Shown: piece by piece, positions 19,309 through 30,207 of the stretch
Layout of the letters: every line of letters begins with the position of its first letter
Numbering within the stretch: position 1 is the stretch's first letter
Assembly: GCF_002865645.1 (NCBI RefSeq)
Contig: NW_020194519.1
Span: 1,175,542-1,239,541 of the forward strand
DNA: 64,000 nucleotides
Direction: 5' to 3'
From: Hyaloscypha bicolor E
Lineage: Eukaryota > Ascomycota > Leotiomycetes > Helotiales > Hyaloscyphaceae
Translations under genes and position numbers: made by a program
Notes under the pieces: generated by a model
Told to the model about the DNA's origin: nothing
Databases searched by the model: none
Seen by the model: the letters and a program-made list of their open reading frames with translations, nothing else

Positions 19309-19576
19309 TACGAGCCCATTCTCACTAGTCTGTGTTCTACAGGCCCATTTTCAGGCCTCGCTAAATTCAAGTCAATAGTTTTATGTCGCTTTTAATAGAT
19401 AACCGCTTATTGTTTTTCTTTTAAACTAAAGCGCATAATATAGAAGTAGTTAAATTTATTTATTGACAATACTAGAATAAATTGAGTAATAGTTCAAAAA
19501 GTTGGGAATTCCCTTCAGTGGTCTTTAGCGAGGAAATTGCCCTGTACCGCACAGACTAGTGAGAATGGGCTCGTTA
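19309..19576. mobile_element. MITE-like element with about 55-bp terminal inverted repeats
   Basis: The left arm at 19310-19365 is mirrored at 19523-19576. The outer 25 bases (ACGAGCCCATTCTCACTAGT onward) are perfect, and the inner part is similar down to CCTCGCTAAA. The 157-bp centre is AT-rich and non-coding. The phrase TTCAGTGGT occurs just outside the left arm and just inside the right arm, which suggests local duplication. A simple TA duplication is not clear. Confidence 0.75.
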
Positions 19577-19791: not shown

Positions 19792-22700
19792 TTAATGCAA
19801 TCGTAGCATTCCTTTTCCAATAACCTTTCCGGCAGGGAACCTTATTCCTTCGCCGTTCATCATGCCATGGACGTAACATTCTCCAACAAGTTGAAAAGCG
19901 CCGTGTGTTTTACTGCTTCTTGTAATGAACGGTACTGCACCACCATGGAAGATAGTGATAATGTCATCCCGCCTAACGCCAGGCGGGGCAATTCCGGCAT
20001 ATCCCTTCTCCGTAATCAAGAACTTCCATCCCTTGAAGTTTTCCTGGAGTGCCGAAAGATAGTTTTGAGCTTTTGCCTTTAGCGACACGAGACCCAGATT
20101 TGCCACGCAAACCCCAATTTCGCCAGCCCTTGGTTGTATCCGGGCGGGTGGACCTGTCGCAACGGATTTTTCCTTCACTCCCTGAGCCAGATAATCTCTC
20201 AGAGCTTCGTAGGACAATCTCATATCGAGGTTAGCAGAAGAGAGAGTTCTAGGGTGCGATGCTCCTGCGATGGGGATTTTCCACTTCAAATCTGCGGAGT
20301 TCTCCTGAGAGTAGAGCGAAAGCGAGTCAACCATTAAGTTGACCTCGTCGACATACGACTTCAACTCCTCGGGTAGGTTACTGGCGAAGCTGACTGAGGC
20401 TACTCTATCCACGAGAAGGCCGTAGATTTTCAACTCATCACTATTAGGATCGCATTGGAAGTTTGGCTCTGTGTCCAGTGCAGCGGCCCATTTAGTCCCT
20501 CGGCTGGACAACGAATAGAGACTATCCTGTTTTGTTTCTGTCCAGTTAGGAATCCAAGATGGAAACCTTGCCTCTTCAGAGTTGATCCCTGCCCGATATA
20601 GCAGCTCCACGACCCCTTCTTTCTTGGCCAGGGCACATGCAAATCTACGAACGATGACCTCGAAATACGAGCTGTAATCGGGGTCGTAGGCAGAATTTTC
20701 CCCGTCGCTAGCGAGCCCTAACAGCGCGAAGAAGTGGTCTCGCTGCCAAGTAGACTCGGTATATCGGAAAGATTCGAGGAGCTCAAACAGGGGCAATCGC
20801 GTCTTGTTTGCTTCGAGCTCGCGTTGCTTTGCTAAGGTAATGAAGTAGGCCCAATTCTGTCGAACCAGTGAGAACACGTCGGATGAGACGTCGGATACAC
20901 GTTGGATGACCTCGACGGCGCTGAAGAGATCGTTCCAGTCCACAATCCATGCCCCGCAGATGACCCGAACACTAGGAGCAACGACGACCTCTTGAATCAC
21001 CCATGCCCGGCGGAACCAGGGGCGTTCGAACAGAGCACCGATCGCTGTCCATATCGGATCGTTTTGGAGCGGTATGGGCTGTCCATCCCAGGAAGGTGGA
21101 ATTTTGGAGAGGCCATCAGGCCACTCTCCGGAGTTCTCCTTGATGGCATCCTTCGCCTGTATTTGCATCAGTGTCTCTAGGGCAGCATCGCTTTGCTCGT
21201 CATTTCCAAGGAACGCCAGGACGCAGGTGGAGTTCTGGAAGATGCGGGGGAGGAGTCTAATTTGCTTAGCTTTCTCCGCTCTCGCTTCCTGGTCGTTCTC
21301 GTCTTGATTGATACAGAGCGCGTCAACCCATAGCACCATGGGCTCTTTCGGGTGTCGCACACATTTCAGAGCAGCATGCAAGGACAACGTTAGTTTAATG
21401 GTACCGTCTGGCGTCCACATGGAATTCGTCATGTCCGTAGTGCCCCATGTGTACGAAAGTGCTCTGAAATCCCCAGGGTCCTTCAGCGAAGCGTGGTAAA
21501 CTACACCCCGAAGCTCCGCGTCCCTTGGTCCAGGCAAGAGGCTTAGAAGACGCATCTGACCGTCCTTCAAGTGCTTGTATTTGTAATTTAGCGGTGGGGC
21601 TGACTTCCTTGACGTATTGGAGACCTTCAGGGGTTTCATGAATTGGGTTGCGTGAGAGGCAGGTTCTGCTACAGATGGAGTTTCTGAAGACTGGTTTAGA
21701 CCATTGACATACCCGAAAAACGGACGTAAATCATATAATGTAGGCTCCATGTTATCCCACATTGATTGATTCGGTTGCCATGGCGTGTCGACAGGCGCCA
21801 ATCTTTGAGTAGTGTTGCACCACGAAGACTGGTGGTTTCTGTGAGCTCCTGCATTAGAGGTCGGCGATGGGGGCTTGTCCTCAATGCTTGCAGTCAAGCC
21901 CCAGAGTTGGGGCAGAACAAATCGATCGGAAGTGTACAGGCTCCAAGGATCAACGAAGAGGTCAATGCGGGGGTCGACATAGGCGTTGCAGACCCTCACT
22001 AGAATGAGCACATCCTTTGGCATTTCCTTTAATTTCGAATCCATCCGAAATTTTCGCATCTAAACGGTTGCCATGGTTAGAAATTACTTTCCAAGCAGGA
22101 GGTACACCTTCAAAGGCAGTCAGTAAGCGAGACTTACTCTCTCAAGCTGGGAAGTATCCCAAGAAAAAGTCGACTTCTCATCTCCAGGCGTCACAGCAAT
22201 ATCAAAGTGAAACGTCGGCGGCCCAGTCAAGCTATTCATTGGATCCTTCCAACATACAGCGGCCCAATAGCCACTCTCAGTAAGAAATTCCGCTACCTTC
22301 TGTGCCGTACGCCTATCTGAGATTGTGAAAGAAGCAGAAGTTCCGGTGTCACCCGTAAATGGCTTATAGCCTGCTCTGTGTCGCAACAGGCTTGTCCAAT
22401 GAATTTCTGGGTCGTACTGTTTTCCTAATGCATTCTGGAAAAGATTCGAGGTCTAGATCGGGTTCTATTAGTAGGAGCGCCTTCAATTCTTCATACGCCC
22501 TATGAATCGCGTCTGTTTTACTCACAATGAGTTCACCGAGATATAAGATTTCTATTAAAGTGGCTCGTGTGGTGATGGCGCAATTATCTCCACGATCGGT
22601 AATGCCATTGAAATGAAGTTTTTGAGAATTTACTTTTGTGAAATCCATGAATGGCAGACTCCTGCTGGAATCTACGCTCGGAGAGTCCCCATACCGAACG

Positions 22701-25700
22701 ATGCCGGATAGGGTTCGCCGAAAACTAGACGATAATCCGTCAAGAAAAGCGCTTAAGTCGTCTTCTAAATCCATCTCTGGGAACGGAGATTTGCTCGTTG
22801 ACACGTCCCCTGAAAGGGCGGCATATTTTGACTTAGGATTCGTCGATTTCATAGCATCTGTATTTAGTGTTAGATTTACGTCCACTCAAGGAACGAAGGG
22901 AGTTTGAATGCCGTACCTCTTAGTGTAGTCTCGTTGACATGGATGCCTCGTTTTCGGAATTCTGATATGAGTTTGCTGGGTTGGGTGTTGCCCAAGGCCT
23001 TTTGCAGCAGACTTCGATGACTTGCATCCTCTATGCCGCAACGGTCCGCAATTCCCTCGACTAGGGCGAGAGGTGGTTCCCAATCGGAAATCTCCTCCGC
23101 TGTCATGAATATTTCCAAGCTCTCCGTGGTTGAAATGAATGCAACCTCGCCAACCCCGCTACCAACAAACTCGACACCATCGGGAGCGAGCAAGACATTT
23201 CTTTGTACAATTCTTTCTGCGCTCTTGACCTTAGCTCGTCGTATCTGGCTGCATATGGCGTCTCGATTTGCCTTCGCCTTAGGAATTAAGCTGCACTCTA
23301 TCAGAACGACATGTCGTCTATAAGAATGGGCCGGATGGTATTTAGTTCAGGCGAACAAGAAGCGTATGATAAGAACACGACTCACGGTATAACAAAACCA
23401 GATCTGGCTCGTAGAAACTCCGTGCAAGACCAGTCCATGCTGGTAATGCCCCCTGCTGTAGTCTCACTTTTGACGAGAAGTGATAGCCGGCGGAAATCAA
23501 GGTCAAGAGCCGATAAAAGGGTATCCATGGATTCTAGGTCGTCCGCCGAAAATGCGAGTAGGCCTACGACGCCAAGAAAGCATTCTCTCAAGTGATCAAG
23601 ATCAGCGACAAACCAATTGTTGTCGTCGCCCAGCACCTTAAGCGAGTCAAATTCTGCGTCGCCTTTACGTTCAAGTATCGGAAAGACACGCCTCGGCCTT
23701 AAAGGATTGACAGCTTGGGTAATCTTTTTGCCACTCATTCCCGCCATCGCTTGGTTTGCTTTGGTGAAGAGCTCAGATATTCGACTTAGTTCAGTCGAGT
23801 CTTTGATCAACGTAATTTCCGCGATCAGAGATCCAACTTCGCCTTCACCGCCCGCCAAAAGGCACCGAAATAAGGTAGTGCATTGGGGGTACTCCGCTTC
23901 AATGTTGAGTTTCCTGGCAATACATTCATCCAAACTGAGCCAGCACGATGTTGGTGTAGCCTCTGCTGATCCGCGTTTCGTATATATCAAATTATGCTTC
24001 TGAAAGGTCGTGCTGCATGCCGTTAGCGCTTGCTCTAGTACGTTCGTGAACTGCGCATACAAGATGAGTTCCCCGTTATTATTTGGATACTCATACTGGA
24101 TTCGTTCGTATATGTGAGTAACTGTTTTCTCTGGGATGCCCTTAGTACCTGTCATGTGCTTTAGACATCGGAGATAATAGTGAATATCTCTCTTCACGGC
24201 GACCCCAAAGTGTTTAAGGAACTCCCATTGCTGATTTTCCGGATCTCTAATTTTCAGCGTTCGAGCAAAAGGGGATTCGTCCACAATATGATCAACCGCC
24301 GGCAGGAGTGTTCCTTGTAGGGGGAAACAGCCATTGTGGCAGACCGCTTCGAGAGCGCCTATAGCTGCTCTTACTGCAACCTTAGAGGCACGGCATGCTG
24401 TGTCCTCAAACGCACCGCCATCTTCAATCCATCGCGAATAATGCTGCCAGTGGTCTCGCAGTAGCTCAAGAGCGTCTACTGATGTGCAGCTATCGAAGAC
24501 GAATTTAAAATCCTCCGAGAGTTTAAAGTGGTCAGGAGAGTTAGCTGACAAGTTGGTGACAAGTCTAGGCATCCGCTCGAGGCCGAAAGATTTGCAGAGA
24601 AATATCAGCCAACCAGTGTCATTTGAGACAGCCTCGAGGTAACTAGGGTGGACGAAGAGATATCTTTTCTCGAGCTGCTTTGTAATATTAGCCAGCGTCG
24701 ACTCCTTGTCGAAGGTTCCATGGATATATAGATCTAAGCTCAGGCGAGAGACGCCCTTCTTGGTTGTAGCGAGCCAGAGGGTCGCGCGTTGGTCACCGGG
24801 CCGCGGGCACCACGAAGACTTGTAGAGAAACAAGGCATGTGAGAGCAACTGGCCAGCGTCGAGCCTTAGGGACTTAAACCATTCCTGGCTATGCATTTCT
24901 ATAATCAGCTTGCTAATTTCAGCAGTGTCGCAATCCGTCACATGCAGATGTCGGAACAAACTCTGTCGCTCAAAGTCGTCCTCGGCTTCTTGGTCCACGA
25001 TGTCTGCCATGACGATGACGCTGCTTGGGATATCAAGGCCACGGGCATTCTTCGAGAAAAAAATTCTTCTGTTGCGAGCCGAGACCCATTCGACAGAATG
25101 TTGCGGTGGTTGGCTCCTTCTCAGCGGTATGATTTCCATGTCTAATATCAATTCTCTGTAAGCGCGTTCCGTTGCTAACTTCAGTAGGACCTTCGCAAGT
25201 TGTGAATGCCATTCCTTGGGCATTCCTCGGAAAGTCCCAGGTTCGTGTGAAATCATCCATGCGAGGTGACGCAGAAACTGCTCAGGAGACAAGATTTTGA
25301 CCTTGAGAGTGCAGAGTTTGTCAATCACCCAGTCCGGGTACTTTAGCGATAAGTAAGTCGTGGCCGTGTGGGAGCTTAGCGTAAAAGGGGTGCCGTCAGC
25401 TCCCGCAAACTTCTTTTGTGGAACATAAATGAGAGACGACGGGATGGCCATAATTTCCGCAGAGGGTTCACAGGAATGTAACAAAGGTTCCTTAGCTAGC
25501 CGCTCTAGGATTTTATTCTTCACCGGGTCGAAGAAAGAATGAATGTCATCAACAGGTAGGTATCTCGGCCAATAGTACTTCAGCTTTCCCGAGTTCAAGC
25601 GTTTCATGGTCTTTACAAATGCATCGGCCGCCGCGTTACGGATGACACGATTCCATGAAGAAGAAGTGTCGATATCTTGTCGACTAGCTGTAAGCAGAAA

Positions 25701-26731
25701 CTCTCCATGTAACAGGAACTAGGACACGGTTAAACACAGGCCTTAATTAACCCCCTTGGATTCTTACCCGAAAACCATAGCTTTTGATGGGCAAGAAAGC
25801 ATACACGCTCTGAGAATCTAGCGTTGATCCCGTATTGAAGTCGGTTACTGGAAATGCGAGTAGGATTTCGGATTCTGAGCATTTGGGACGTTTGGGCTCA
25901 ACAGGGAGCCCAATAACTCGATGTTTCGTGACGAGATACTGAGAATCTCTGTTGTCTTCATGCAGCGTCGTGATCTTGATATCAGTTTCCTCCACGTCAG
26001 TCCTTTGGAGCTTTCGATGCGACGTTTTCCCGTTCTTGTCCGTGATCGTGATATTTATTTCCTTCAGTTTCCGAAGAAAAATGAGTACCCTAGGATCAAG
26101 GTTCTTGAGTTCCTGGACGAGTTCTTCTTCATAGTTGTCTAGCTGTAGATGAAACGACGTGAATCCAGGGAGAATCTTTTCGGGAAACGCGGCCCATATT
26201 GGTGCAATCAGACCAAGCTGCTCCGCCTTGTCGAATTTGAACGAAAAGTTCCCAGACGAAATAGATACCACTTTGGCCACACGGAAGACTGACTTGAAGC
26301 CGATACCCTTTTCGCCGATATGCTGCTTTGAAAAGCCGATTCCATCCTTGGTGCTCTGACCGATTGTACAGATTGCTTGGACATTTTCAATGGAAAAGCC
26401 GACCTCATTGCTATCAACTCGGAAGACACCTTTCTTATAGGTGAAATTCAGGGTTGGTCTGGCATCGGGTTTCACAAGCTTGAACGTGTTGTCGTCGGCA
26501 TTTTGGATAAGTTCCCTAAGAAAATGGGTTGATGTGTTGTAGATTTGTTGGGACAACCTGTTTAGTTCAGTATTGAGACAATAGTCACGATGGAATTATA
26601 GGCTGCTAGTACACTTCAAGTGCATTTTCAAGCGCCAGGAGAATCGATTTCTCCTCGCCGATAGATCCATCCAATGTGATATCCCGCCTTATGTCTTCGA
26701 TAACCTTCCTAGCTTTCGCCGCGGAAGTCAT
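19792..26731 (-). CDS. NOV-type GHKL ATPase fused to a HET domain (2179 aa)
   Basis: Seven exons, 5' to 3': 26731-26613, 26557-25768, 25718-23386, 23317-22917, 22857-22526, 22434-22138, 22059-19792. Introns are 55, 49, 68, 59, 91 and 78 bp, all GT-AG. Phases agree throughout: 6540 nt, no internal stop. Residues 1-40 are the helical lead of NO VEIN (NOV) proteins. The GHKL ATP site has an N-box LRELIQNADDN (53-63), G1-type NEVGF (90-94) and GEKGIGFKSVF (121-131). A FLPI..YGFR/FLLHGEFLLTASRQDI block spans exons 2-3. Residues 400-1300 are a family-specific region. The NOV C-terminal domain runs about 1326-1474, with HWTSLLRHRAG, FHFDIAVTPG (1400-1409, where the family has an E-x-K) and VRVCNAYVDP..FVDPW. 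A Ser/Pro-rich linker (about 1475-1581) leads to a HET domain: FRALSYTWG (1622-1630), LWVDALCINQ (1667-1676), WFRRAWVIQEV (1772-1782). The C-terminal HET-protein region ends GECYVHGMMNGEG. HET domains trigger incompatibility cell death; GHKL ATPases act as ATP-driven clamps. A self/non-self sensor is inferred. Confidence 0.85.
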
Positions 26732-26881: not shown

Positions 26882-28859
26882 TTTTTTTTTGTTTTTTTTT
26901 TTTGTGTTCCATTAACCGAGATCCCTAGTCAATGCACACCCCAAGCGAATGCACACCCTTTTCCCACCAAAACCACCCATTTTTAGACCTTAATAATTAA
27001 GTAACTAATAATTAGATTAACTTTAAAATTTGTATATCATTAGTTTTATATATACTAAGTAATATTATAGTATAAAGTTTACGTAATATTATATATTGCG
27101 TATTTAATATTAAGCTTAAAGTTTATAAATTACCAGAATTTAATATTATTTAAATAAAATTATAAATAGAATTAAAAACTAAAAACTACTTAATTTTATA
27201 GTAATAATATAATTTAGTGAAGGCTTTTATTAACTGGTTTTATTAATATATCCTTATAATAATAAAGTATATTTGAAATATAAACTTTTTTAAAAATATA
27301 ATTAATATTTATATTATAAAAGTTAATTTTAAAGCTTTTAATAAAGATTTTTATTTTTATAATATAAAAGACAAATCCAAAAGAAGTACTTAATTTTATA
27401 AGAATTTATAATATATTTCAAATTCTTAAGTTTTAAAGTCGAATTTATATTTAAATTAATTATATTATATTAAATAAAAGAGTTTCTTATAAAACAAAAT
27501 TCATAATATTATAAATTAGTATATAGAATATAAAATAAATTAATGGTTTTATTAAAACCGGGCTTATATATATTTTTATATTTAATAAAAACTTTTATAT
27601 TATTTTTTACTAATAATATTATACTTATTATAAGATTATATAAATATTTTATATATTAGAATAGTCGCTTTTAGCTAACTTTATATAAGGAAGATTAATT
27701 TTAATTTTAATTCTTTTTAGTTTTTAATTTAAGTTTCTTTTTTAAAAAAAAGAAATCTTTAAATAAATTTTATATATAAAATTAGAATTTCATATCTAAT
27801 ATATTATTTTATATAAAAATAATGGTATTAACTTATAGCTATATATAAGATAAAGTGAACTTATAAAATTGAAGCTAAAAGTATTTATATATATAAAGAT
27901 ATTAAGTTTTAAATTAAAGAATTTAAGATTTTTGAAAATTTAAATAAAAGCTAATTTAAATAAACTTAATATCTAAAAATAGCTACATATAATATATAAA
28001 AGAATACTCTAGCTTCTTCTCTTTTTAACTATAAAAAAATTATATTATTATTATTAATAGTTATTAATACAGGCAAAAATGCGCTCTCTGAGGAGCATAA
28101 ATTGGGTGCTCCTGGAAGCTTATATAGGGGTGAAACATGCCCAGAAGCTAAGCCCCTGAACACGTGATATTGCACGCACAGGGCGCACCAAGGGGGGGGG
28201 TCCTGGTGCTACAACAGTTGTTTAGTAAATAACTATTTAATAATATAAGTTCGGCTGAAATTAGGGTGTGCATTGACTAGGGATCTCGGTTAGTCTTTTT
28301 AGCTGCCTAAGGCGCTCTGCAGACACACTATATAGGGTTAGGCTACAGAGGTGGTCACGAGTCCTCGACTCCGCTCCAGAGCTGACAAAGCAAAAAGGAA
28401 ATCTAAAAATCTAAAAATCTAAAATCAAAGCACCTCCCACTCCATGTGACCTTGCCCCTTGCCCTCCCTTCCGTTTCTATGTGATTTGTTACAATATAAC
28501 AGCCCCCAGAGGGCTTAGTTGGCCCAGTGTACAATCGTCGCCTTGATCGGCCTCGTCCCCTATTCCAATGGTGAAAGTGTCTTTGTATAGCTCGCAAACT
28601 GATCCAGGAGACCAGTGGCAAGCATGAATTTGACGGTTTGGGTATGAGCTTTGTGTCTCTCAGGAAGAGCCTGGCATCTCTGACAATGCTCTTCCCCAAG
28701 TACTTGAAACGAGTATCTTCAAGACACTCACAGTCTTCAATGATGTGGCGCACTGTTTGGTAGGCCTGTTCACAGCCGCACCATGGATCTTCTGTACGCT
28801 TAATAGTGTTGAGGTATCCGTGGAGCCCGATTTTCTCCGTCCGCATCTGGATCAGGACC
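26882..28859 (-). mobile_element. 5'-truncated LINE (Tad1-like) with poly(A) tail, interrupted
   Basis: Minus-strand insertion. The 13-bp CTGCCTGATAGAT occurs at 26869-26881 and again at 28860-28872 as target duplication. The 3' end on the minus strand is GGAACAC followed by A13 C A10 (26882-26905 on plus). The 5' end is truncated inside the C-terminal region of the second ORF. Coding is at 28403-28859: VLIQMRTEKIGLHGYL, then a Cys-His cluster CGCEQAYQTVRHIIEDC typical of the tail of fungal Tad1-type reverse-transcriptase proteins. The frame runs out in a short TTTTTAGA-type repeat. The TIR transposon at 26915-28290 sits in its 3' UTR, so about 600 bp is LINE. It is much less mutated than the transposon inside it. 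Confidence 0.85.
26915..28290. mobile_element. TIR DNA transposon (Tc1/mariner-pogo type), RIP-mutated
   Basis: The 27-bp terminal inverted repeats are perfect, beginning ACCGAGATCCCTAGTCAATG (26915-26941 and 28264-28290). They are flanked by TA on both sides (26913-26914, 28291-28292), as for Tc1/mariner/pogo elements. A second AATGCACACCC follows inside the left end at about 26948. The interior (about 26990-28075) is RIP-type AT-rich and no transposase can be read. A 160-bp balanced stretch near the right end (28076-28235) is not mutated. It lies inside the LINE, so it is the younger insertion. Confidence 0.85.
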
Positions 28860-28895
28860 CTGCCTGATAGATATTTCAAATAAATTTAGGCGAGT

Positions 28896-28938
28896 ACTCG
28901 ATCTCCCGTTTAAATGCACGGCCCGCTTGAATGCACGC
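28896..28938. repeat. Possible end of a second, related TIR transposon
   Basis: After a TA the sequence CTCGATCTCCCGTTTAAATG.. has the same layout as the TIR at 26915: two AATGCAC motifs about 16 bp apart, separated by CCC. I did not find a matching inverse end in the window. Confidence 0.4.
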
Positions 28939-28965
28939 CTTACTAGAAAACTAAAATATTTAATT

Positions 28966-29051
28966 ACGAGATCAGGGCCGCTTCGCTAAAATTCAAGCCT
29001 GGCGGCCCTATGCAAGCTCCGGGGCCAGTCTTTAATTTTGCCCTGATCTCG
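28966..29051. repeat. Foldback, 12-bp perfect arms plus AAAATT
   Basis: CGAGATCAGGGC at the left and GCCCTGATCTCG at the right enclose about 60 bp. Each arm is followed inward by AAAATT/AATTTT. It may be a tiny MITE. Confidence 0.6.
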
Positions 29052-29299
29052 ATTCGAGATTAATTAGATAAAGCTCTCTATTTTTATAAATTACTATATT
29101 CCTTAATTATATTTGCAAAGCTCCCCCTTCCCTTTTATAGGCCATTTTAAGCCTTACTTTTACTTATTAAGCTCTCTCTCTTACTTAACCCCCCCTCCCT
29201 TTTTTTTTTATTAAATATAGCCACATTGCGCTCGCAAGCTCGCAAGCTCGCACTAATGTGACGTATAAGCGTACGGGAAATTAGTTTTTTTAAGAGCTT

Positions 29300-30207
29300 T
29301 TATTCAAGTAATCCTCTATAGTTACAGGCCGGATTGCAAAGTTTAAGCCTATACTCGCTAGTAGGAGCTAGAACTTGGATCGCATACTCTAATTGCTCGT
29401 TTGTGGCCTTCGGGCGAGGGGGAATGGCTCTCTTTTGCTTTGCTTTCCGGACCCGGTTTGCTTTCTTATTCCGTTCCCGGTATGCATTGCATGTAAAGAA
29501 CTGGCCGAAGTCCGTAAGAGGCTTTTTTCGATTGCAAGAGGAGCAGTATTACTCTTGCGGGCTCTCTTGGGTCTCTTGCGGGCCCTTCCAAGCCTCACTT
29601 GCCCCCGTAAGCCCCTTACCACCCGTATTTTCGCCCGCAAAGCTCTCCCTTTCCTCCCGCGAACCCTCCCAAGCCTTATTCCCGCTCGCAGAGCCCTCCC
29701 CTTCCTCCCGCGAACCCTCCCAAGCCTCACTCCTACCCGCAGAGCTTTCTCTTTCCTCTCGCGGACCCTCCCAAGCCTCACTCGCCCCTGCAAGCCCCTT
29801 ACTACCCGTACTTCCACCCGCAAAGCTCCCCTTTCCCCTCGCGAGCCCTCCCAAGCCTCACTTGCACCCGCAGAGCTCTCTCCCTCTCGCAAGCCCTCCC
29901 AAGCCTCATTCTCACCCGGAAACCCTCCCCAGCCGTCTTGCAAGCCCGTAGAGCTCCCTTCCTCGTCCGTCAAGCCTTCCCAGCTCTCCTCCCGGTCTAT
30001 ATCCCCCCCCTCTTCCACTTGAGAACCCTCTGCCACACTCTTCTCTGCTTGCAAGCCCTCTCGTAAACTCTCTATATTCGCAGAGCCTGCCCAGCCCTCT
30101 CCCACACCTATAGAGCCCTCTTATAGGTCCGTATACCCTATCTACTACTAATACGGGCCCTTATAATACTCCTCTCCCTTTTGCTAGCTCTTAATCTCTT
30201 TTTGCAT
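29300..30207 (-). pseudogene. Repeat ORF with C-terminal cysteine cluster, lightly RIP-damaged
   Basis: On the minus strand a degenerate tandem of about 15 residues (core EAWEGSREE) runs from about 30100 to 29545. In the frame that is open at 29854-29549, a TAA is met at about 29547. The same frame goes on at once with YCSSCNRKKPLTDF, then FFTCNAYRERNKK, and ends CNPACNYRGLLE before TAA at 29302-29300. The spacing CxxC...CxxY suggests a four-Cys zinc-binding site with one Cys changed to Tyr (TGC-to-TAC). The internal TAA could come from CAA. Both are RIP-type changes. Upstream, an ATG at 30207 starts a frame broken by further stops. A second, heavily mutated copy lies at 3985-4870. Function unknown; probably part of a transposon or a multicopy family. 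Confidence 0.6.

Follow-up and report, generated by a model that had tools for sequence, protein, structure and literature searches.

The nucleotide-switch death receptors of fungi that are described in the available parts of PMC10197012 and PMC4986451 are STAND proteins. In fungal NLRs (HET-NACHT-WD40; HET-E, HET-D and HET-R), a HET death effector and a nucleotide-binding module belong to one multidomain protein, as outlined in portions of the same two sources, and the HET domain is N-terminal (PMC4986451, in part). The available part of PMC10197012 presents the HET domain as able to cause cell death by itself and as a remote relative of TIR. Two further precedents are found in the accessible sections of PMC3710099. 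The sacsin-like-DEATH proteins of the sponge Amphimedon join a sacsin-type ATPase to a death-pathway domain in one protein, and the paraMORC GHKL ATPases have a C-terminal effector, a HEPN fusion and restriction-modification neighbourhoods.

The gene described here, K444DRAFT_554213 of Hyaloscypha bicolor E, is found in a 64,000-nucleotide stretch of DNA (the window), and its layout plausibly parallels the NLR switches, as the first-pass annotation had proposed. However, its product has a GHKL ATPase in place of the NACHT or NB-ARC domain of fungal NLRs, and its HET domain is C-terminal. A Pfam scan (E up to 1) gave HET and SACS only, with no NACHT/NB-ARC, WD40, TPR or ankyrin repeats, which places the protein outside the NLR (STAND) class as defined by a NACHT or NB-ARC domain. 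The Amphimedon proteins differ from it in using a DEATH adaptor rather than HET and in belonging to animals, and paraMORC is another GHKL family with an RNase-type effector and prokaryotic neighbourhoods. No published description of a sacsin/NOV ATPase-HET class was found among the matches listed in the literature searched; sacsin and heterokaryon incompatibility are both named in the available part of PMC8195603, but in separate places.

Gene structure and domain order

The gene occupies 19792..26731 on the minus strand, from start codon to stop, as defined by the match to the database protein P0001 (2160 aa) and by the homologue alignment. P0001 is matched letter for letter by a model of eight exons (26731-26613, 26557-25768, 25718-24061, 24012-23386, 23290-22917, 22857-22526, 22452-22138 and 22059-19792), all introns being GT-AG. 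Seven exons of consistent phase and a 2179-residue frame had been annotated at first pass. Such a frame can indeed be read on the minus strand from 26731 to 19792 with GT-AG introns, yet the homologues favour eight exons and the seven-exon structure was rejected. The 8-exon model has an extra intron (24060-24013), and its introns 23385-23291 and 22525-22453 replace 23385-23318 and 22525-22435. Within the 16 alignment rows viewed, homologues agree with P0001 at the first two of these places, and the extra residues at the third are present in most rows.

From N- to C-terminus, the predicted protein consists of a sacsin/Hsp90-type GHKL ATPase, a long middle region, a NO VEIN C-terminal domain (NOV_C), a disordered linker, HET and a C-terminal barrel. 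The ATPase domain lies in exon 2 (25768..26557, minus strand, as are all features below) and is identified as sacsin/NOV-type by Pfam SACS (PF25794, 35 bits against a cut-off of 32.8; residues 46-149 of the 2179-aa frame, E 1.7e-8), by the bacterial models discussed below and by its N-box (ELIQNADD), G1 (DSNEVGF) and G2 (GEKGIGF) motifs. In the aligned columns of 110 HET-carrying ("fused") homologues, the N-box E and N are each kept in 108, the G1 N, E and G in 109 each and the G2 glycines in 109-110, while the first G1 D is kept in just 84; these counts supersede an early regular-expression scan that gave all three boxes in 89/120. The middle region (exons 3-5, 22917..25718) is common to unfused NOV proteins, being matched in own-genome paralogues by the profiles MID1 and MID2, which span residues 304-1064 only.

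The restriction-nuclease-like NOV_C domain (21895..22452) is split over exons 7 and 8 and is followed by a linker (21601..21864) predicted to be disordered, as pLDDT stays below 50 between residues 66 and 153 of exon 8. The HET domain (PF06985, 20989..21468) is complete, matching profile positions 1-146 of 146 at residues 1622-1781 of the 2179-aa frame (E 1.3e-27; 97.4 bits against a cut-off of 22.5), and its signature columns are conserved among 104 aligned fused HETs. The C-terminal region (19795..20577), which we take to be a barrel, corresponds to PF26639 in the precomputed Pfam assignments of many homologues and is matched by a family profile that includes the gene's own sequence. With the 755-residue multidomain model of the last exon as query, no TIR chain appeared among the best 50 of 126 Foldseek matches or among 50 entries by VIA-align. 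The first-pass calls of a sacsin-type ATPase, a complete HET domain, a last exon open through the linker into HET and a NOV_C domain crossing the junction before that exon are all upheld by these data and those that follow.

Since the last exon opens exactly with ATG, two adjacent genes could have been merged by gene prediction, with a HET gene starting at this codon. This is extremely improbable and the two-gene model was rejected, because NOV_C straddles the junction and would be halved, and because the fusion recurs in three diverged H. bicolor genes and in 110 of 160 distinct homologues listed (all gene predictions). With profiles made without the gene's own sequence (other family profiles include P0001), the NOV_C halves on the two sides of the junction match the family with E values of 1.7e-33 and 8e-15; for the last exon against the HET profile, E is 9.4e-79. 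The corresponding exons of the other two fused genes, L031 and L036, are likewise open through the linker into HET. In all 110 fused homologues HET is C-terminal, starting at 0.60-0.86 of protein length.

By the predicted proteins, then, one gene joins the ATPase half to HET; the fusion is genuine, but it is not the only one of its kind. A domain-architecture search, as suggested at first pass, gave HET in 103 of the 120 best among 1934 homologues (self included), C-terminal every time; because of this frequency the fusion is not due to chance, and the earlier view of it as an oddity gives way to that of a recurrent architecture in sequence databases. GH16, NUDIX and RTA1 domains occur on single homologues and were taken as gene merges.

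Relationship to bacterial TmtA and to chaperone ATPases

The first-pass annotation contained no link to bacterial defence. The PADLOC models PDLC03964-03972 represent TmtA, which we take to be the single-gene anti-phage system Tiamat, and are built on known or candidate anti-phage proteins. They match P0001 strongly but partially (E 4.7e-77, residues 33-701 of 2160), and on these profile matches the N-terminal third of the window protein is homologous to TmtA. The best TmtA models score 749-1058 bits against six bacterial or archaeal relatives, each matched over nearly its full length by at least one model, and the same 6/6 have an N-terminal SACS and a C-terminal NOV_C in Pfam. MID1 is matched in 12/12 bacterial or archaeal ORFs and MID2 in 6/12. 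The fused fungal form differs in being eukaryotic, in its broken NOV_C motif and in the addition of HET and the barrel. No paper on TmtA with phage was found in the literature searched.

A role as a proteotoxic-stress sensor, in which a sacsin-like chaperone ATPase would trigger HET death upon protein-balance failure, would make the protein something other than an immune receptor. A profile of 26 unfused relatives does match Hsp90/TRAP1 and sacsin chains, and sacsin paralogues with DEATH domains are conceivably part of a suicidal unfolded-protein stress response (PMC3710099, in the part available). However, the Pfam scan shows no J domain in the window protein, the TmtA models match far more strongly, and the closest homologues have a patchy distribution (Lasiosphaeris 49%, Lepidopterella 48% and another Hyaloscypha 38%), which, if weakly, fits conflict genes. 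We consider the stress sensor unlikely.

Loss of the nuclease motif in HET-carrying proteins

By definition, an active PD-(D/E)XK nuclease carries [DE]-x-K on one of its core strands. At this position, on strand 91-99 of the predicted model, the window protein has a degraded D-I-A (22195..22203) in place of the [DE]-x-[K/R] of most unfused relatives, and by that definition falls outside the active nucleases. The closest fungal comparison is with NOV-only proteins (for example P0100, P0101 and P0103, annotated as "Protein NO VEIN C-terminal domain-containing protein"), which have the same ATPase, middle region and NOV_C and are 32-34% identical, but are without HET. The motif is intact in 35/40 members of the main unfused fungal clade, whereas it is broken in 108/108 scorable fused proteins (110 rows, 2 gapped) and in 6/6 scorable scattered unfused proteins (9 rows). 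Within the H. bicolor genome it is intact in 6/6 unfused paralogues and in 0/3 fused genes. EVK or EIK is found near the C-terminus in 9/12 bacterial or archaeal relatives with a main ORF. Motif loss in fused forms whose ATPase and HET residues are still conserved is, in these alignments, a new finding, as is the match of the ATPase half to the TmtA models.

The NOV_C region of the window protein aligns with that of the unfused fungal proteins. The Pfam profile PF13020 has no match in the window protein; 4/26 unfused fungal relatives match it within a limit of E 1 (9.9e-5 at best), as do 6/6 bacterial or archaeal relatives. PDB sequence searches gave weak matches only (best E 1.1 for the NOV_C profile and 0.27 for the HET-half profile), and the structural matches of NOV_C are nuclease-like but weak. 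Because of these structural matches and of the motif loss in fused proteins relative to the unfused clade, NOV_C is read as a pseudo-nuclease, in agreement with the first-pass annotation.

Alternatively, NOV_C could have kept nuclease activity or nucleic-acid binding by means of shifted active-site residues, with HET serving only to regulate it. Several of its positions (W, F, H and DPW) remain conserved in fused proteins, and the first motif position is acidic in 78/110 fused rows. Against this, none of the 108 scorable fused proteins has an intact motif, the place of the lysine is taken without constraint by A, V, I, H, Q, C and other residues, and the six fused proteins that have K there all lack the acidic residue. 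We regard a working NOV_C as very unlikely.

A candidate immune switch and its origin

On balance, the window gene probably encodes an immune ATP switch of the Tiamat/NO VEIN type in which HET replaced the nuclease effector; it would be a death switch of NLR-like design, with a GHKL ATPase taking the place of the STAND one. The GHKL ATPase and middle region, homologous to TmtA and of the NO VEIN kind, would sense or clamp on a putative trigger; ATP hydrolysis, with conformational rearrangement or dimerisation, would bring the C-terminal HET domains together, and the assembled HET domains could carry out or signal cell death, in an immune or allorecognition role. NOV_C may represent the ancestral effector. 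After addition of HET at the C-terminus, it would have kept its fold, lost its active site and become a structural adaptor; the direction of this effector change is our inference, and the swap can be read from sequence because the motif is lost in HET-carrying forms.

Plant NO VEIN is reportedly a developmental or silencing regulator, and the fungal proteins, which share its domain family, could act likewise, with HET as a protein-interaction module rather than a killer. Most HET gene functions are unknown according to the available part of PMC10197012. This reading is nevertheless decidedly unlikely: the several diverged copies in this genome (the window gene, L031 and L036 fused, six unfused with NOV_C and one incomplete) and the AT-rich, repeat-flanked surroundings of the gene are, if weakly, unlike those of a core developmental gene.

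For the immune switch, a broader proposal is possible but more tentative: the fused proteins may form a widespread, unnamed class of fungal immune receptors derived from a Tiamat/NO VEIN anti-phage ATPase, in which one ancestral event retired the nuclease and attached the TIR-like HET. Fungi would then own a second, non-STAND NLR-like switch, and a direct line would connect the immunity of bacteria with that of fungi. The Hsp90-like GHKL ATPase is of a family in which some bacterial proteins are catalogued as anti-phage. Two questions become accessible together: the role of the many HET genes outside allorecognition, and the mechanism of Tiamat/NO VEIN ATPases. The pairing of one sensor with either of two effectors, nuclease or HET, also constitutes a natural experiment.

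In a FastTree phylogeny of 159 rows, the fused label changes 9 times: 40 unfused rows make up a single clade, and the other 9 are dispersed over the fused side of the tree. Of the latter, P0047 and P0108 look like merged or damaged models and P0095, P0245 and P0251 are short; true HET losses are possible. Two smaller trees left out these 9 rows. In a tree of 81 rows rooted on bacteria and built from the first 900 residues (root not trusted), fused and unfused proteins interleave, with 4 changes of which the starred branches force 1. For the whole NOV part (57 rows), a tree that keeps the fused proteins in one group improves on the free tree by 7.9 log units (p-AU 0.68), which is no proof of a single origin. 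The HET parts of the fused proteins form one group relative to 28 other HETs of the H. bicolor genome, with a support of 99.

Structure and spread of the fusion

The gene lies on the minus strand (26731-19792) as one spliced gene; its host belongs to the helotialean ascomycetes. The first-pass annotation had a single gene joining a sacsin-type ATPase to a complete HET domain, and this holds: one frame encodes both the SACS domain (Pfam, E 1.7e-8) and a full-length HET match (E 1.3e-27), with no other Pfam domain found at E up to 1. The seven exons then proposed do give a 2179-residue translation, every intron being GT-AG, and this is 99% identical to the database protein of Hyaloscypha bicolor E, K444DRAFT_554213 (P0001, 2160 aa). 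However, an eight-exon splicing of the window sequence reproduces P0001 exactly; it differs by one additional 48-nt intron and two acceptor sites, and is better supported by the homologue alignment (16 aligned rows viewed).

A protein search with the window protein scored 7981 candidates, with 1934 at E 1e-3; by family profile, HET is present in 103 of the best 120 of these 1934 homologues, self included. The best 120 matches of a second search, with the unfused relative P0100, added 40 proteins. Among the 160 distinct proteins listed, 110 contain HET and 50 do not, a ratio that reflects two best-120 lists, one queried with a fused and the other with an unfused protein, rather than natural frequency. 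HET is C-terminal in all 110 fused proteins listed, starting at 0.60-0.86 of their length. Apart from a few metagenome proteins, the named owners among the listed matches span many genera, which we take to be ascomycetes. The fusion, earlier regarded as an oddity, is a standing architecture and not unique to this protein. Database labels of the fused proteins are mostly hypothetical, uncharacterized or heterokaryon incompatibility protein. No description of the fungal fused class was found in the literature searched, which mostly excludes subscription papers; the class is real, conserved and, in that literature, apparently undescribed as such. Madurella fahalii P0260 (2309 aa) is a NOV protein without HET by family profile; its chain is long, PF28131 is annotated, and it is possible that it bears another C-terminal module.

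A SACS search of the H. bicolor genome gave 17 exon hits, and 12 regions around hits outside the window were extracted. Three genes, namely the window gene, L031 (contig 46) and L036 (contig 45), encode ATPase, NOV_C and HET together. Six more (L029, L032-L035, L037) encode ATPase and NOV_C with no HET within the extracted stretch. L030 lacks a NOV_C match and looks incomplete. L026, L027 and L028 are SACS genes of other kinds, without a match to the fungal NOV-family profiles. The genome holds at least 150 HET domains (150 of 785 candidates scored, all matching).

Loss of the NOV_C motif

The restriction-nuclease-like NOV_C domain of unfused proteins has a [DE]-x-K motif, for example in YHLDVKTT. 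After P0279 (849 aa) had been dropped, the NOV parts of the other 159 proteins were aligned, and the midpoint-rooted FastTree phylogeny places 40 unfused rows in one clade (support 95), with nine further unfused rows scattered among the 110 fused. In aligned columns, [DE]-x-[K/R] is intact in 35/40 rows of the unfused clade, in 0/108 scorable fused rows (two of 110 are gapped) and in 0/6 scorable scattered rows (three of nine are gapped). Excluding R leaves 30/40 and 0/110, respectively; six fused rows keep K with the acidic residue gone. Within H. bicolor itself the motif is intact in all six unfused genes (EVKST, EVKTT, EIKTT, EVKST, EVKST, EVKCT) and broken in all three fused ones (DIA, EVV, QVV). 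The breaks in 108 of 108 scorable fused rows support the earlier description of NOV_C as a pseudo-nuclease-like module. Since its W, F, H and DPW positions are still conserved in fused rows, the domain appears to be kept as a fold. Because the fused rows are related, the breaks may represent one loss followed by drift. The motif's absence from the scattered unfused rows would fit either fused ancestry or damaged gene models.

At 12 of 13 columns checked, residues of the ATPase N, G1 and G2 boxes persist in 105-110 of the 110 fused rows; the exception is the first G1 aspartate, present in 84/110. In the 40-row unfused clade the same residues persist in 35-39 rows. A profile of 26 unfused relatives, run against the PDB, matched N-domains of Hsp90/TRAP1 with a best E of 5.1e-6 and sacsin with an E of 0.0097.

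Prokaryotic relatives, origin and possible mechanism

Scanning genomes with the unfused alignment yielded 182 relatives in prokaryotes; 80 were kept and 13 examined, 12 of the latter having a main ORF. EVK or EIK lies close to the C-terminus in 9/12 main ORFs; neither is found there in L062 and L070, and L068 is doubtful. All six relatives scanned contain both SACS and NOV_C and match the TmtA models (best 749-1058 bits) of PADLOC, a model set covering anti-phage proteins, whether known or candidate. The TmtA models also match P0001 (E 4.7e-77, residues 33-701), P0100 (1.6e-80) and the homologue P0114 (5.9e-91). TmtA is the gene of Tiamat. Published work names Tiamat among systems of unknown mechanism, or sites it in defence hotspots. 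The motif is common to bacteria and unfused fungi, which argues that the nuclease-bearing NOV protein is likely ancestral and the fused form derived; the tree root was not trusted for this. The fungal NOV_C profile reaches just 1/12 bacterial or archaeal ORFs (L065, E 1.3e-6), so that a wide distance separates NOV_C of fungi from that of bacteria, and our confidence in the verdict is slightly lowered.

In three proteobacterial loci (L060, L063, L066) the NOV gene is directly followed by a gene encoding a NERD nuclease-related domain and a UvrD-like helicase (PADLOC RTasNERD-Hel), and the pair could form a two-gene defence unit. An integrase lies upstream in L060. No PADLOC model matched the single neighbour scanned at each of L059 and L071.

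When the HET parts from 112 fused rows are compared with 28 further HETs of H. bicolor, they come out as a single group (support 99); the strength of this is limited by long branches and by how few HETs served for comparison. Constraining the fused rows together in a 57-row tree of the whole NOV part changed the likelihood by +7.9 and was not rejected (p-AU 0.68). Against one origin, a tree of N-terminal parts rooted on bacteria requires four fused/unfused changes, and further changes in the 159-row tree come from the nine scattered unfused rows, which neither sample included. A single origin of the fusion is the simplest, though tentative, reading.

In GHKL clamps, ATP binding closes the N-terminal dimer. 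By analogy, ATP binding would close that of the window protein; recognition could reside in the middle region, and NOV_C, now presumably inert, and a linker predicted to be disordered (pLDDT under 50) would connect the ATPase part to HET. Death would start once the HETs are brought close; the switching, its trigger and the killing are all inferred. Two papers describe HET as able to cause death on its own and as a remote relative of TIR (PMC10197012, PMC4986451). Precedents for death or toxin domains on ATPases of this superfamily are sponge sacsin with DEATH domains and paraMORC ATPases with HEPN, according to PMC3710099. The window protein would be a new version of a design that pairs a switch with an effector, one in which the effector replacement can be checked.

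Genomic setting

At 48% GC, the gene stands out as an island in mostly AT-rich surroundings (13-27% GC), where TpA/ApT is 1.20-1.38 and (CpA+TpG)/(ApC+GpT) is low (0.21-0.65), ratios as expected for RIP. Exceptions are 28200-30000 (49% GC) and the first 3 kb of the window (48%). The 34 kb at 30000-64000 (18% GC) have RIP-like ratios, and the 20 longest stop-to-stop frames of the window include none that falls entirely within them. The nearest relatives among the matches listed (49% and 48%) belong to other genera, while a Hyaloscypha variabilis protein stands at 38%, which suggests a patchy descent of the kind shown by conflict genes.

A segment resembling a mobile element (26913-28292) lies some 180 bp from the start codon on the gene's upstream side; its 32-nt terminal inverted repeats are 97% complementary. 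Allowing up to 2 mismatches, the genome has 30 occurrences of its end sequence, which often form facing pairs spaced 1.2-2.8 kb and in a few cases more widely. Just downstream of the gene is a 265-bp MITE-like element (19310-19574) with 41-nt inverted ends (88% complementary); its end sequence has 20 occurrences at the same tolerance, mostly as facing pairs about 265-275 bp across. On the minus strand, a 160-aa open frame (28403-28885) resembles, by eye, a LINE-type retroelement protein at its tail end.
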